36,502 nt of DNA from a virus. The translations under genes and the position numbers were made by a program. Under the pieces are notes generated by a model that saw nothing but the letters and a program-made list of their open reading frames with translations, ran no database searches and was not told the DNA's origin. The stretch spans positions 1 through 36,502 of the IMG/VR virus record IMGVR_UViG_3300045006_000141. One strand, written 5' to 3'. Of this stretch, positions 1 through 8,628 are shown piece by piece (the stretch's first letter is position 1; each line of letters starts with the position of its first letter).

Positions 1-255
1 AATGCTTATGCAGGTGATGTGATGTTGAGTGATATAGCAAATAGATTTCCTGGTAATGGTAAAACCCAAGAAATATTTCCTAAATTTATTGAAAGAATGA
101 AAAAAGAAGGACGTAAAAGAATACTATTAACTGTTAGAAAAGAAAATTATTTAGCAATAAATTTTTATAGAAAAATTGGATTTAAAGAAGTTGATAAAAA
201 ATCATGGGCTGAAGGTAGAATACCTGGCTTTGTTTTTGAGTATAATATAATATGA
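1..255 (+). CDS. GNAT-type acetyltransferase, C-terminal fragment
   Basis: The reading frame is open from base 1, so the gene starts outside the window; about 84 codons are visible. The fragment resembles the C-terminal part of GCN5-related N-acetyltransferases: a beta-strand with ILLTVRKEN, then the ENYLAINFYRKIGFKEV segment, the usual 'N..a..fY.k.GF' helix and strand that help bind acetyl-CoA and close the fold. Such enzymes move an acetyl group from acetyl-CoA to an amine; the substrate cannot be told. It ends at a TGA just before a strong terminator. Family call is moderate because the acetyl-CoA P-loop (Q/RxxGxG/A) should lie at or before the window edge and is not clearly seen. Confidence 0.6.
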   Translation, partial: NAYAGDVMLSDIANRFPGNGKTQEIFPKFIERMKKEGRKRILLTVRKENYLAINFYRKIGFKEVDKKSWAEGRIPGFVFEYNII

Positions 256-294
256 TAAAAATCCAGTTAAACTCGATAGGTATTAAAAAGCAAT

Positions 295-325
295 AAAAAA
301 CCCAGTCTTTTCGACTGGGTTTTTT
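295..325. terminator. Bidirectional intrinsic terminator
   Basis: The stem CCCAGTC/GACTGGG has a 5-nt loop and is flanked by an A-run on the left and a T-run on the right, so it can end transcription on both strands. It would end the acetyltransferase gene rightward and the structured RNA unit leftward. The loop reads GAAAA on the minus strand. Confidence 0.85.
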
Positions 326-364
326 ATTTGTCTCTACCTGTCTTCCTCCAGGTTGACATTCGTC

Positions 365-526
365 TTATCGGATCCATTTTTTTTTGGGCTGGTTAGAGGT
401 TAAACTTTGTAACATAACCTTCGTGTTGTTACCAACACAAGATAGAGACTGAATCGCTCTTAAAATTTCTTTTTTTTTGTGTTCGTCTATTTCATCTTTC
501 TGAAGGATTACTTGTGTCCGAAACAT
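365..526 (-). CDS. Possible 53-aa basic small protein
   Basis: An ATG-to-TAA frame of 53 codons starts MFRTQVILQKDEIDEHKKKE and ends with a lysine-rich tail, KKKWIR. The composition looks protein-like: a charged helix, then a polar region with one cysteine. It sits at the 3' end of the leftward structured RNA unit, directly before the shared terminator. No Shine-Dalgarno is seen, as for other genes here. Two short inverted repeats (397-420 and 423-438) fall inside it, so the stretch could instead be the tail of the non-coding RNA. I do not recognise a family. Confidence 0.4.
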   Translation of the reverse strand: MFRTQVILQKDEIDEHKKKEILRAIQSLSCVGNNTKVMLQSLTSNQPKKKWIR

Positions 527-872
527 AAAAGAAAATGAAAATAAAAATAATTTGATGAGACTCCTGACTACTCACAATCCTTGGATTTCGTCTTCCATTG
601 TTCACCCACACCCCACAGATGGTGATCAGCCATTGTGTTTTTACCCTTTCGGGTGAATGGGAGGTCTGTTTACCTCCAGCCAGATACAGCCATCAGCATC
701 GCTTTGTACGGTTTGTCTGGTTCTTACGTCACTCACGGTTGGCCAACCGTGGCTATTTCAGGTTTATGGTACAAAATCTGTAACACTCGCTCCCGGGCTT
801 TTCAGCCCTGGGCTACAATGCGTTAGGGGCTGGCGACCCCTTGATTCCGCCACAAATTATTTTATTTTCAAT

Positions 873-886
873 CTTTCAAAGAACTT
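873..886 (-). promoter_or_regulatory. boxA-like antitermination site, copy 1
   Basis: Minus-strand sequence AAGTTCTTTGAAAG. It matches the boxA core (GTTCTTTGAAAA) known from rRNA leaders, where it is bound as RNA by NusB-NusE. This is the last of three copies in transcript order. Confidence 0.6.
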
Positions 887-1035
887 TTATTACTGGAAAT
901 GAAGTGTAGGCTGCTTCATTCCGATGCTAGTCTAGACTATCGGTTTTACTCTTCGAGGACTTCTGCCCGCTCTTCGTCTGTTTCCCCTGCGGCTCCTCAA
1001 GCATCCACAGACTATTCCCCTTCTTTATTTCCAGA

Positions 1036-1049
1036 TTTTCAAAGAACTT
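1036..1049 (-). promoter_or_regulatory. boxA-like antitermination site, copy 2
   Basis: Minus-strand sequence AAGTTCTTTGAAAA, identical to copy 3 and one base different from copy 1. It lies between structured segments of the candidate RNA. Confidence 0.6.
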
Positions 1050-1243
1050 GGTTTGCTAAAGGGACAACAATTCTTTTGTATTGAGCTTAAAAGCGCCTTT
1101 TCGCAAACAAGAGCATTTAATGAAAGTGAGCGGCCCCTTGGCTCACAAGTAAGGAAAGTAAAGTCTATTATATAGAGATACTTTGGCTTACATAGCTATT
1201 CAGATCAATATTCCGAAGAACTCCCTGAAATTATAGCTTTTCA

Positions 1244-1257
1244 TTTTCAAAGAACTT
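1244..1257 (-). promoter_or_regulatory. boxA-like antitermination site, copy 3
   Basis: Minus-strand sequence AAGTTCTTTGAAAA, about 125 nt downstream of the predicted transcription start. This is the first copy in transcript order. Confidence 0.6.
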
Positions 1258-1387
1258 ATTTTGAAAATTTTGAGATTAAATTTTTTTGTCAAACTTTTAA
1301 TCCCTACTATTGGGTTGAAAGGTTATCTCGCCTTTCAGGATTCAATCATTCTGTGAATTGATAGTTTGATTTCTCAAAATTGAGATA

Positions 1388-1395
1388 CAAAGATA
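1388..1395 (-). promoter_or_regulatory. Host-type promoter -7 box for the structured RNA
   Basis: The minus strand reads TATCTTTG, which fits the Bacteroidetes primary-sigma -7 consensus TAnnTTTG. A convincing -33 TTTG at normal spacing is not obvious. It differs from the TTAATATATA-type box before the protein genes here, suggesting that host polymerase with its own sigma factor makes the RNA. Confidence 0.5.
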
Positions 1396-1513
1396 CGTCA
1401 ATCCGTCGAGATAAAAAAACTTTTCCCAAAAAATTGAAAAAAAGTTCTTAAAAATTTATTCTCATCATCATCAAAAAGAACTTTACTAAATCGTCAATAA
1501 ATAACAGATTTTA

Positions 1514-1740: not shown

Positions 1741-3961
1741 ATGGACTCAAAAAAGGAATTGGTTTTATTTCAGGTTTAACTTTAGGATAGAATCTTTTAT
1801 GTGCTTTTCCAAAAGAATTATAATCTATAGTACTTCCATCATCTTTATTTCCCAAAAATTTCTGTAATATTTGTTTCTCTCTTTCCGTTAATATATAATC
1901 AACATAAGTGTCGACAAGATTTTTAAATTCATAATGATCGAACAAACTAGATAAATTTATCATGGACATAACACAATCGTCGTTTCCGCTTTCAGATTTG
2001 AAAGTTATTTCACCGCTTGGTGTTTCTTTTTTAGAAAAAGATTTTAATTCTATGACAGTAATATCATTATGTAATATTATACTATCTTTTTTAATAGCGT
2101 CTTGAAAGTCCTTCAATAGCAATTTTTTATTATGTCCTATCAATAGACCAAGTTTTGGTCTTTGATCTGATTCTCTATGTTTGAATCTTGCAAAAATAGC
2201 ATCCATAAAATTGTTGTTATCGTTAAAAACATGGCGCATATTATTGATAAGATCATTACCAAGATTCTTATTCATTTCAACAACTATTTTTACTTTTTCT
2301 GGATCGAAAATTTCAAACACTAATAAATATAATATATGTGCTATTTCATTTATTGAATATACATTGTTTCTAAATAATCCAATTTGCTCAAGTTTAAACA
2401 GATCATATTTGTTACTATAAATGTCCTTTTTCCTTTCTATTAATTTTTCATCTTTCATCATTAATCTGAATATGTTAAAAACAGAATAATCTAATCCCAA
2501 ACCTTCCGCTAAATCAATACCTATAGTTATATAATAATCTTTTGCTTTAGTCAATTCAAATAGATCTGGTCGATTTTTTATAAATTTTAAACTATTATAT
2601 GACAAATTAAATTTCTTTTCAAATATTTCTAAATACGGAGTATCGAATTCAAGTTGTTCATTCATAAAATTCTGAAACATTAAACTATCAAATAACAATT
2701 TATCGTCAATAACGAACTGGATTTCAAATTCTTGCTTGAACATACTTGGACCACCAATAATACCAGTTTGTTCTTCTTGCCAATTTGTTATTCTACAAAC
2801 TTCTGGCAATGGAATAATCTCATTTATTCTGAGTTGTCTTATATCGTCAATTCCACATTTTTCTCTGGGTATTTTTTCATCATCCTCAAAAAATTTTATT
2901 AAATGCCAATCTTCACCATCTAATTTTCTATAATAAACATCATAACCCATTTTTTTTAATTCTTCTAAAACCTCTTCTTTGGTTATATTATATTGACGTA
3001 ATTTAGATTCTATGAAATAAAGTTTTGTGTCGCGACGTCCTTTTACTTGGAACCAATAAACTCTCATTGGTTGATATTTATTCCATCTAGGATCACTTTT
3101 ATCTCTTTCGGCATCAGTTAACAATTCCCAGAATAAGTTATAACCATTTGGAGTAGAAGTAATAATAATCTTTGAATTTTCAATTGAAGAAACAGTAGGA
3201 ACAACCGATCCATAATATGCTCTAATTATATTATCTGGAACTTTTGCGAACTCATCTAGATATAACAAATCAATGGCAAAACCAATAGCTGGCTCTTTAG
3301 ATCTTGATTGACTTTGAATTCTGCTGTTGTTTTCGAATGCTATTTGTTTTTCGTTCCAGTTTGTTACTCCTATTTTTAAGAAAAATGGAAGTAATTTATA
3401 TATGTCTTTTATTTTGTGTATAATTTCTTTTACAGTTTCACTTTTGTTAGCCACGATCATAACACCTTTATCATCATTGAATAAAACAAGATGGAGAATA
3501 ACAATAGAAGCTGATATAGTATTTAAGTTTAATATATCGTTAGCGTAATAACTATGCTCATTAGAAAAAATCGATAAATCGAACATAGATACTTTATTTT
3601 TTAATTTCTTAATAGATTTTATTTTAGAAGGACCTTTTTTTGTTAGAATAATATCATTTTTTTCAAGATCTTTAATATATTTGATTATATGACCTTCGCA
3701 GAATATTCCATGAACATCCGCACATTCTAGTTTTAGACCATTCTCCAGCAATAATTCGTATATAGTATATGGTTGTGTCAAATTTATTTCTTCAACTGGA
3801 ACAAATCCATAATCGGTTTCAACTAATAAATTTTTAATTGATATAAAATTTATAATTTTTTTAAGAGGATCCGATTGATCAAAATCATGATTTTTATATT
3901 CAATTTTTTCTATTTTCTCAATTAAAAAATATATTATATTTTTCAAAATCTTTTTTAACAT
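1688..3961 (-). CDS. terL: Terminase large subunit, C-terminal half, with C-intein
   Basis: Residues 1-147 are the C-fragment of a split intein; residues 148-757 are terminase. The extein starts at T148, the Thr of Walker A, and continues like T4 gp17: a Walker B region LLYLDEF, the STPNG coupling motif, then an RNase H-fold nuclease with acidic residues in GIDLAEGLGLDYSVF, VVEMNK and GNDDCVMSM. The protein powers DNA packaging and cuts the concatemer. It has no Walker A lysine of its own; that lies in the N-half gene at 16275-16823, 12.3 kb away on the same strand. Spliced length would be 128+610=738 aa. The start ATG overlaps the stop of the endonuclease gene at 3955 by 7 bases, suggesting coupled translation. 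Confidence 0.92.
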   Translation of the reverse strand: MLKKILKNIIYFLIEKIEKIEYKNHDFDQSDPLKKIINFISIKNLLVETDYGFVPVEEINLTQPYTIYELLLENGLKLECADVHGIFCEGHIIKYIKDLEKNDIILTKKGPSKIKSIKKLKNKVSMFDLSIFSNEHSYYANDILNLNTISASIVILHLVLFNDDKGVMIVANKSETVKEIIHKIKDIYKLLPFFLKIGVTNWNEKQIAFENNSRIQSQSRSKEPAIGFAIDLLYLDEFAKVPDNIIRAYYGSVVPTVSSIENSKIIITSTPNGYNLFWELLTDAERDKSDPRWNKYQPMRVYWFQVKGRRDTKLYFIESKLRQYNITKEEVLEELKKMGYDVYYRKLDGEDWHLIKFFEDDEKIPREKCGIDDIRQLRINEIIPLPEVCRITNWQEEQTGIIGGPSMFKQEFEIQFVIDDKLLFDSLMFQNFMNEQLEFDTPYLEIFEKKFNLSYNSLKFIKNRPDLFELTKAKDYYITIGIDLAEGLGLDYSVFNIFRLMMKDEKLIERKKDIYSNKYDLFKLEQIGLFRNNVYSINEIAHILYLLVFEIFDPEKVKIVVEMNKNLGNDLINNMRHVFNDNNNFMDAIFARFKHRESDQRPKLGLLIGHNKKLLLKDFQDAIKKDSIILHNDITVIELKSFSKKETPSGEITFKSESGNDDCVMSMINLSSLFDHYEFKNLVDTYVDYILTEREKQILQKFLGNKDDGSTIDYNSFGKAHKRFYPKVKPEIKPIPFLSPFNQKPGDLRNPFEKKWI
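3521..3961 (-). other. Split-intein C-fragment (TerL)
   Basis: 147 residues. The intein block with the conserved His is seen in LECADVHGIFCEG, and the C-terminal block in VSMFDLSIFSNEHSYYA. The last residue is Asn147 followed by Thr+1. The penultimate residue is Leu (ILNLN), not the usual His, although the inteins in UvsX and the reductase here both end SHN. The first 22 residues form a lysine-rich amphipathic helix, MLKKILKNIIYFLIEKIEKI, that may pair with the similar helix ending the N-fragment. Nearly the whole splicing domain is here, so the split point is the atypical early type known from AceL-TerL. Confidence 0.85.
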
Positions 3962-5406
3962 GATACATATTTATATTTTAAATGACCCGAATCATATATT
4001 CTATATATATTTTTTTCTAGCATTATATCTTTTTCTGTTTTATTTGGATCATACCCTTCTTTTACCAATTTATCTTTTCTGAATCCAAATCTATATTTTC
4101 TTACCCCATCAACGACATAATAATAATTTGGTTTAGTTTTACATTCTAACATAAATCCTAATTTCTTATATAAATTTCCCTGACTCCAGCTTCTATCTGC
4201 ATAACTTATCACTTCTTTTGGATTATAATGTTCAATAAAATATTTAAATAATTTGCTAGCTCCTCCTACAACATTAGTGTTCAATTTGTTACAGAATCTA
4301 AGCATTTCATATGATTTTTCTACAAATTTATAACCCAACGGTTTTCTTAAATTACCAAACGTCATTAAACTTACCATTTCATCATTACAAAATAAACCAA
4401 TTTTGATTTTAGAGCCAACGAATCCTTGAATATGATTTTTTTCTAAAAAACTTCTAACTAGATTGTTATTTTTAATTTCCTTAATTTCACATTTTCTAGC
4501 CATTATTTTTTCAGATTTACCTACAATACTTATTATTCTAGATTTAACGATGTCTTGTTTATATATCCAATCATCTTCATAAACATGTATCAATCTTATT
4601 CCATGTTTTTCAGATATTTCTGTTTTTTCTTGATGATAATTATTTGGTTTATATAATTCGTTATGCCAATATACACCATTAAACTCAAACGCCAACTTTA
4701 ATTTAGGGATATAAATATCCAATTCTTTTTCTATAATATTCGTAGTATTAAATAAAATTTCATCATCATATATTTCTTCTATAAATTTTTGAAATTTTAT
4801 TTCTCTTCCACTTTTTGAATATGAATTTAATGGATTACAAATTGTACATATAATAGTTTTATATTTAACTCTATTACCAAGCAGTCCAAAATCTATATCG
4901 AATGAATGATTTTGTCCATTATCGCATTTAAAATTAGCTGTATGATTTTTAATATAGTTAATATTTAAATAATTATATTTTTTTAAAAGCCATTGCATTT
5001 GTTTATTTTTACTCTTATTTATAATTTCATTATTTTTACTAACTACTCCAAAACCATATTTATCGATGCAAGTTTTTTCTAATTTTTTTCTTATATTTAT
5101 ATTTTGTATAGGTCTTTCACATCCGTATTTTTCTATATTTGTTTTATTTATTTTTTCTTGACAACATTTCTGAGAACAACTATAAATATTATATTTCTTA
5201 TAATTTTTATAAAAAACAAAATATCTTATTTCTTTTTCTTTTCCACAAACATCGCATTTTACTTTTACTTTTTCTCTAGAATAAGGAGGAAGCTGATATG
5301 TTGGGATTTCGATTTCATCATTATATTTTATATCATATCCTAAATTTGAATAATACTTTAAATTTGGTTGTTTTATTTTTATTGTAATTTTATTGGATAG
5401 CAGCAT
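3955..5406 (-). CDS. Homing endonuclease, zinc-finger plus VSR-like nuclease
   Basis: 483 aa. The N-terminal part has a CDVCGKEKEI...CSQKCCQEK zinc-finger-like segment and 'NIEKYG'-type repeats typical of DNA-binding modules in phage homing nucleases. The middle part (about residues 200-280) fits the VSR-like EDxHD nuclease family: ELDIYIPKLKLAFEFNGVYWH, then YHQEKTEISEKHGIRLIHV and EDDW. The C-terminal third (NHIQGF, MTFGNLRKP, YEMLRFCN, VVGGASKLFKYF, SYADRSWSQG) is a module often attached to these enzymes. It cuts DNA to spread itself. It sits directly before the terminase C-half, overlapping by 7 bases. An 11-codon frame ends in TAA directly before its ATG. Own promoter box at 5441. Confidence 0.85.
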   Translation of the reverse strand: MLLSNKITIKIKQPNLKYYSNLGYDIKYNDEIEIPTYQLPPYSREKVKVKCDVCGKEKEIRYFVFYKNYKKYNIYSCSQKCCQEKINKTNIEKYGCERPIQNINIRKKLEKTCIDKYGFGVVSKNNEIINKSKNKQMQWLLKKYNYLNINYIKNHTANFKCDNGQNHSFDIDFGLLGNRVKYKTIICTICNPLNSYSKSGREIKFQKFIEEIYDDEILFNTTNIIEKELDIYIPKLKLAFEFNGVYWHNELYKPNNYHQEKTEISEKHGIRLIHVYEDDWIYKQDIVKSRIISIVGKSEKIMARKCEIKEIKNNNLVRSFLEKNHIQGFVGSKIKIGLFCNDEMVSLMTFGNLRKPLGYKFVEKSYEMLRFCNKLNTNVVGGASKLFKYFIEHYNPKEVISYADRSWSQGNLYKKLGFMLECKTKPNYYYVVDGVRKYRFGFRKDKLVKEGYDPNKTEKDIMLEKNIYRIYDSGHLKYKYVSC

Positions 5407-7725: not shown

Positions 7726-8628
7726 TTAAAAAACCGTTTTTAGAATTTTTTCAACATTATTAACATTTTTATAAGATATTCTTAATAAATTAATATTTTC
7801 ATTTTTACAGAAATCGTTTTTAATATTATCTCTAATTAATCGTTCTTTATATTTTTCAACACCTCCGAAATATTCTATTATATTTTCATGTTGAATTCCG
7901 TCATATTCTATACAAATATTTTTATCTTTAATATAAAAATCGAATGGTAAAGAATATTTATATTTGCATTTTTTAAAAGAGAAATTATATTCATATTCTA
8001 TTTTATTGTTATCTAAAAAGTTTTTAATTCTAATTTCTCCTTTAGATGATTTGCAAATTGGACAACCACAGCCGTCTAAATGACTATATGGTTTTTGTAA
8101 AAAATCTCCGTGATATTCACATTTTATAATTAATTTTGTATGAGCATTTTTATAAACAGATTTAGAATAATCAAATTTAAAATTATGAACAATATTAGCC
8201 TTACTCACAAACTCATTAGTATTAGAAATATATGTTCCTCCGCATATTTTACAACCATGTTTATGTAAAAATTCATTGGGTTTTTGCTTAAATATTCCAT
8301 GTTTTTTACAAAAAATAATTATTGGATTTTTATTACCTTTATAATCAACCAAAGATAGATCATATTTTTCATACAACTCTTTCCCCCATATTTCTTCACA
8401 TTTTTCAATAAAAGTATCATTATTATATTTTATATTACCATAACATTTTGGACATCTTCTTCCTCTGAGATGAGAGTTTGGAGTTTGTAAAAAATATCCA
8501 TGTTCAGGACATCCAATTTCAACTTTTATTAAAGTTCCTTCATAGTTAACACGCGAATAATCGAAAAATTCCCCGTGAATTTTTTTAGCTTTTTTAACAA
8601 AAATTATATTGTTTAGTTTTAAGGACAT
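7726..8628 (-). CDS. Homing endonuclease, DUF723-type zinc repeats plus VSR-like nuclease
   Basis: 300 aa. Three repeats of the 'HG.f.YS..nY....t.v.I.C..HG.F.Q.p..Hl...GCP.C' type cover about residues 15-195, with cysteine pairs CPKCYG, CKICGG and CPICKSS. Each is likely a zinc-binding DNA-recognition unit. The C-terminal 100 residues form the nuclease: SKGEIRIKNFLDNNKI, LPFDFYI, ICIEYDGIQHE and NLLRISY. Free-standing enzymes of this kind move as selfish genes in T4-like phages. It has its own promoter box overlapping the end of the upstream gene and is not attached to any intein seen here. Confidence 0.85.
   Translation of the reverse strand: MSLKLNNIIFVKKAKKIHGEFFDYSRVNYEGTLIKVEIGCPEHGYFLQTPNSHLRGRRCPKCYGNIKYNNDTFIEKCEEIWGKELYEKYDLSLVDYKGNKNPIIIFCKKHGIFKQKPNEFLHKHGCKICGGTYISNTNEFVSKANIVHNFKFDYSKSVYKNAHTKLIIKCEYHGDFLQKPYSHLDGCGCPICKSSKGEIRIKNFLDNNKIEYEYNFSFKKCKYKYSLPFDFYIKDKNICIEYDGIQHENIIEYFGGVEKYKERLIRDNIKNDFCKNENINLLRISYKNVNNVEKILKTVF

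Follow-up and report, generated by a model that had tools for sequence, protein, structure and literature searches.

The window analyzed here, that is, the whole 36.5-kb IMG/VR virus record (36,502 nt), attributed to a phage related to the largest one known, probably carries an RNA gene that is built like a stable-RNA gene of the host and has at its core a relative of the cyanophage 'riboswitch' RNA manA in circularly permuted order; its product most likely acts in trans, is made together with the phage tRNAs and serves translation or tRNA function in the infected cell. Computation supports the RNA family and its secondary structure, the manA relation, the tRNA-array context and the boxA match. 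The features of the unit in the window, all on the minus strand, are as follows.

1413..1419, minus strand: promoter -33 region, a T-tract 17 nt before the -7 box (read from the sequence)
1388..1395, minus strand: Bacteroidota -7 promoter box TATCTTTG (TAnnTTTG), read from the sequence and kept at the same place in L003, L017 and L019
295..1383, minus strand: predicted transcript of ~1.09 kb, from the promoter and terminator positions
1258..1383, minus strand: 5' module, conserved in L003, L017 and L019 (alignment A6)
1245..1257, minus strand: boxA 1, AAGTTCTTTGAAA, from the motif scan; resembles the boxA of a Bacteroidia 16S leader
1050..1244, minus strand: second module, from boxA 1 to boxA 2, partly kept in L003, L017 and L019 (A6 spans 1100-1244)
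1037..1049, minus strand: boxA 2, AAGTTCTTTGAAA, from the motif scan
887..1036, minus strand: module between boxA 2 and boxA 3, non-coding sequence that differs in the relatives L003 and L019
874..886, minus strand: boxA 3, AAGTTCTTTGAAA, directly before the core, a place conserved in L003, L019, L015 and L172
554..856, minus strand: conserved core P1-P9, putative permuted-manA RNA, from covariation (model R1 scores 186.5 bits on 554-769)
731..753, minus strand: P4 hairpin with loop GGCC, followed by the invariant GUGACGUAAGAA (alignments A3 and A8)
555..575, minus strand: P9 hairpin with loop UAGUCAGGAGU (helix 12; 100% paired, 4 of 5 pairs changed on both sides)
329..553, minus strand: 3' module, conserved in L003 and L017 (alignment A7)
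292..328, minus strand: intrinsic terminator, from the terminator scan

The initial annotation of this DNA had placed a structured RNA, together with a host-type promoter box and a terminator, at 545-1395. The promoter box is indeed of the Bacteroidota type; a sigma-70 consensus scan missed this promoter, whose type is outside the reach of that scan. The terminator is real, but it lies outside that interval, at 292-328, so the transcript would run from about 1383 to 295. Three boxA sites had also been proposed, and their number and spacing were exact: the motif scan found three exact minus-strand copies of the 13-mer AAGTTCTTTGAAA in the window, 208 and 163 nt apart, whereas shuffles with one mismatch allowed contained on average 0.48 matches and at most 2, and none of 100 reached three. 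The region is also GC-richer and non-coding, as had been claimed, with a GC content of 0.42-0.50 at 501-1100 versus 0.17-0.32 in the flanking 1801-4000. A coding region was ruled out: only short ORFs occur there, mechanical translation of which gave no protein-family matches in the RNA region, and the indels in the alignment of homologs are not multiples of three. The next gene (1-255, plus strand) is GNAT-like and convergent with the RNA unit, which argues that the RNA is the end product of its unit.

The terminase large subunit gene lies upstream of the RNA unit. Two HNH or homing endonuclease genes (3955-5406 and 7726-8628) are found near the terminase gene, and the terminase has a weak match to an intein-splicing domain. 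A close relative (L017:7560-8440) retains the promoter, the 5' and 3' modules and three boxA sites but has other sequence where the core would be, so the RNA is modular. Two phages of 642 and 634 kb have only the terminator hairpin in common with the window RNA, and model R1 gives no hit in them.

BoxA is an antitermination signal. In one Bacteroidia genome, which may not be that of the phage host, GTTCTTTGAAAATATTGAA stands 135 nt before the 16S gene, and its boxA 11-mer GTTCTTTGAAA is the same as that of the window; of the 12 genomes tried, this one alone had a 16S match. The resemblance to a Bacteroidota rRNA operon leader extends from the boxA GTTCTTTGAAA to the AT-rich sequence after it and the TAnnTTTG promoter box. 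Unlike such a leader, the window has three boxA sites in one phage transcript and no rRNA. We infer transcription, antitermination and a role in translation. A Bacteroidota promoter would start the unit, NusB/NusE would load at boxA and enable RNA polymerase to traverse a kilobase of structured RNA that is not translated, and the intrinsic terminator would end it. The product would be a stable trans-acting structural RNA, transcribed either along with the tRNAs of the phage or from units of the rRNA style.

Structure in the 303-nt core (554-856) is real, as proved by covariation and not by folding energy. Thermodynamic stability was weak, with z = -1.68 for 554-856 and z = -1.06 for 890-1385, neither of which is significant. 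In an alignment of 12 sequences (A2), on the other hand, 95.6% of cells were paired and 48 of 73 pairs had changed on both sides, giving a covariation score of 0.577 as against 0.201 +/- 0.015 in shuffles and up to 0.127 in slid controls. A larger alignment of 29 loci, 22 of them distinct (A8), which was itself fitted to a covariance model, gave 98.1% paired cells and a score of 0.570 as against 0.200 +/- 0.012. Covarying stems in homologs, the check proposed with the initial annotation, were thus very strongly present (0.57 versus 0.20). The 5' part of the core consists of P1, with an internal loop GAANAA/UAA and a hairpin, and of P2, with a GAAA loop. A long-range helix, P3, again shows UAA/GAAUAA and is followed by P4 (loop centre GGCC or GUAC), P5, P6 (a GGUA hairpin), P7, which encloses the variable P8, and P9. 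Many hairpins, as had been noticed, are present as well, including an invariant hairpin of the CU-GAAA-AG type (GNRA loop) in the core.

Homologs of the core were found in a 735-kb phage, which is said to be the largest phage reported in 2020, in all 15 Lak megaphage records, in more than 20 IMG/VR contigs and in two bacterial MAG contigs. In blastn searches against phages, the 735-kb phage (LR756501) matched 64% of the query at 75% identity and the Lak megaphages showed a core match of 38-48 nt, and core pattern scans of IMG/VR and GTDB contigs gave further loci. All 17 scored new loci of the last two scans matched model R1 (133-184 bits). Carriers among 50,697 phage records were the 15 Lak records and two copies of the 735-kb genome. 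Among 395 Bacteroidia genomes, R1 had a single true match, the seed genome itself; only the respective seed genome matched among 37 genomes of the genus of G005 and among 98 genomes of the family of G006. It should be noted that the large scans were run with strict filters, so weak members could be missed. This rarity in bacterial genomes rules out a bacterial housekeeping RNA, and the core family is a mobile, phage-type one. Together with the covariation and the Bacteroidia 16S-leader boxA, these huge-phage homologs bear out the proposal that a phage carries a structured non-coding RNA of kilobase scale with boxA sites of the host type. Two further matches, one in Devosia (L014) and a weak one in G132 (L029), were judged to be due to chance. 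A bacterial MAG copy (L015:1018-2709) has genes for a reverse transcriptase and an HD-domain protein nearby and may belong to a prophage or other mobile element. At another locus (L013), the core is preceded at a distance of ~200 nt by a TTGACA-N17-TATATT promoter, so phages with non-Bacteroidota hosts may also carry the family.

Known RNA families were also considered. GOLLD, ROOL and other Rfam families were ruled out by Rfam scans, and Rfam lent no support to a piece of rRNA, RNase P or tmRNA, a possibility weighed by eye. The GOLLD and ROOL covariance models gave no match at the gathering score or at E <= 10 on the window stretch, nor at E <= 0.5 on L003, L012, L015 and L011. The suggestion that the RNA is either a new class or a divergent ornate RNA was therefore close to right in its first part only: a divergent GOLLD or ROOL is not supported, and the detectable relative is manA in permuted order. 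GOLLD and ROOL are large non-coding RNAs that phages often carry close to tRNA islands (PMC12286853). A location near tRNA genes in phages or prophages is shared by the core family (23 of 28 loci) and not by the window itself; unlike GOLLD and ROOL, the core has ~300 nt and different conserved elements, with no sequence or structure match in the Rfam scans. It is rather unlikely that the core is a self-assembling RNA, forming a homo-oligomer or cage, that resembles GOLLD or ROOL in action while being unrelated by descent. Such an RNA would fit the phage location near tRNA islands (PMC12286853) and the self-complementary tetranucleotide at the centre of the P4 loop, GGCC or GUAC, which was read by eye in 20 of the 22 distinct A8 members and hints at dimers. 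However, the small size of the core and the lack of sequence relation speak against it, related sequences share loops by descent, and only 11 of the 22 were scored as having a palindromic P4 loop when counted automatically, as this counting accepted no loops but those of four bases.

Judged from sequence, the core is a relative of manA in permuted order and not manA proper, since both score and order fail. Rfam manA (RF01745) matched six of the nine core-bearing records searched, always on the core and including that in the 2.7-Mb genome of L015. These matches were weak and missed the gathering score of 55.2 bits (best 24.6 in L011; 12.2 on the window), and they fell into two tiles per core, the first from P1 to the C-rich strand of P7 and the second, in which a large part is deleted, from P8 to P9. 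Two tiles suggest a tandem manA whose second copy is shortened, in which case the closed unit P3-P8 would be a circular permutation. The old 5' and 3' ends of manA would then be joined through hairpin P8, with new ends opened in the P1 loop, and the simplest route would be that a manA-like RNA was duplicated in tandem and then partly deleted. Like manA, the core has a GGGNG/CNCCC closing helix, the internal-loop motif UGACUGAAUAA...UAAGG, a P5 stem followed by UUG and then a GGUA hairpin, a GAAA-loop hairpin, and an occurrence in phages. Unlike manA, its elements are circularly permuted, it has an additional 5' P1-P2 and 3' P9 that resemble second copies, its scores are far below the Rfam cut-off, and it usually lies in tRNA arrays or rRNA-style units. 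No clear equivalent of the manA middle domain is present in the core.

To compare the two orders, two covariance models with the same 46 pairs were built from a diverse set of 11 manA RNAs of marine phage and contig origin: R3 in native order and R2 rotated at the P1 loop, the one rotation compared in this way. R2 scored higher than R3 in Lak-A1 (30.0 versus 11.3 bits), Lak-B2 (29.2 versus 11.3), L012 (19.8 versus 10.3), L086 (18.3 versus 10.1) and L011 (17.5 versus 10.5), and there was little gain from rotation at two loci that had suggested the hypothesis, L013 (12.1 versus 11.6) and L015 (11.9 versus 6.0). Thus, 7 of the first ten core loci were matched by R2 (11.9-30.0 bits), with R3 reaching at most 11.6. 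At ten further loci, outside the set that suggested the hypothesis, R2 found the core in all ten (13.9-27.5 bits) and R3 in four (up to 15.6). Overall, R2 matched the core in 17 of 20 loci, usually far above R3; the conserved helices and sequence elements of manA were accordingly present in these 17 loci in rotated order only, and the native linear order P0-GGGAG-P1-middle-P5-P6-CUCCC was not found, the native model reaching no more than 15.6 bits at any core. Off-target matches of R2 reach 15.2 bits and some core scores (13.9-14.4) are below that, so low R2 scores mean little singly. A sequence-only profile scan over rotations peaked at 53.2, compared with 47.3 for the native order and 31.7 +/- 3.3 for the null; the peak covers rotations 36-88, a range containing the predicted cut. 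In the reverse direction, model R1 gave a partial match to the manA of P-SSM2 (11.3 bits). The subgroup of the window, L003 and L019 is too diverged for R2 to reach, and its link to manA goes through the family alignment with the other members.

The likeness to manA might instead be convergent, arising from common internal-loop and hairpin motifs and not from descent with circular permutation. Recurrent motifs such as UAA/GAN loops do arise in unrelated RNAs, the R2 scores are modest, and R3 also gains from the 3' hairpin. All elements are nevertheless in exact cyclic order, UGACUGAAUAA is identical in many members and the ten further loci agree with the rotation, so we give convergence a minor chance.

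Under the preferred reading, that of a permuted manA relative acting in trans, the genomic context points to translation. tRNA genes were found in 23 of the 28 core loci, some of which are near-duplicates, with 209 tRNAs on the same strand as the RNA and none on the opposite strand. In Lak phages the core is flanked by tRNA genes, the next of which follows after 33-34 nt. An RNA made with tRNAs, or like them, probably has a role in translation or tRNA biology. Against this reading, a tRNA scan found no tRNA gene in the window itself, and L015 is in a bacterial contig. A core that senses a ligand and controls a downstream gene or tRNA, as a riboswitch-like cis-regulator, appears quite unlikely. 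manA has been proposed as a riboswitch candidate, often being located in potential 5' UTRs (PMC2864571), and in L015 the core is followed by a terminator and then a gene. In contrast, neither the window core nor most of the others lie in a protein gene's 5' UTR, as manA often does: the window unit stops at a terminator before a convergent gene, which argues that its RNA is not cis-acting, and Lak cores and most others lie between same-strand tRNA genes.

The placement of boxA bears on a different cis-acting role. BoxA immediately precedes the core in the window, L003, L019, L015 and L172, is degenerate in L086 and lies farther upstream in L012 and L174. Of the members that lie in tRNA arrays, most have no boxA nearby, so boxA is not needed for the core. 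An antitermination RNA comparable to HK022 put or EAR, which would alter RNA polymerase and thereby secure complete transcription of long tRNA arrays and structured modules, would explain an antitermination signal directly before the core in several units, and tRNA arrays are long untranslated transcripts. This explanation seems very unlikely, as many members without boxA lie well inside an array, and in the window and L015 little or nothing remains between core and terminator.

With this RNA, huge phages gain a strongly supported structured family that is, within the open-access literature searched, apparently undescribed, and that is present in every Lak record examined and in the 735-kb phage. 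It is also a candidate for a large structured RNA that was circularly permuted in nature, and the sequence itself shows a plausible route by duplication. manA, listed since 2010 as an orphan riboswitch candidate, would be recast as part of an RNA group traveling with tRNA genes, and its function would become testable through translation and not metabolite sensing alone. A broader proposal, which we hold only tentatively and regard as doubtful, is that manA-type RNAs are a widespread structural RNA of phages and plasmids that is tied to tRNA genes and is not primarily a riboswitch; in huge phages it would have been permuted by tandem duplication, placed under rRNA-type antitermination, and would dimerize or associate with the ribosome, aiding the takeover of translation. 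A manA has been reported on the tRNA-bearing Bifidobacterium megaplasmid pMP7017 (PMC10832533), and a blastn search of a plasmid collection found no manA. A faint form of the tRNA association is seen in ordinary manA too: among its marine loci, 9 of 99 hold a tRNA, which is close and on the same strand in 8 of the 9.

Several minor observations concern tRNA genes. In six marine contigs (L050, L068, L080, L098, L131 and L136), an ordinary manA abuts a same-strand tRNA-Asn or tRNA-Gly gene; counted from where the GGGAG strand starts, the tRNA gene begins 175-189 nt further on. Other non-coding spacers between Lak tRNA genes (L005:4296-4418 and 4491-4631) are conserved among Lak phages and may be small structured RNAs. 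Finally, L012:3180-3252 and L086:3716-3788 are tRNAs whose anticodon is CTA (tRNA-Pyl according to ARAGORN), suggesting possible TAG recoding in these phages.
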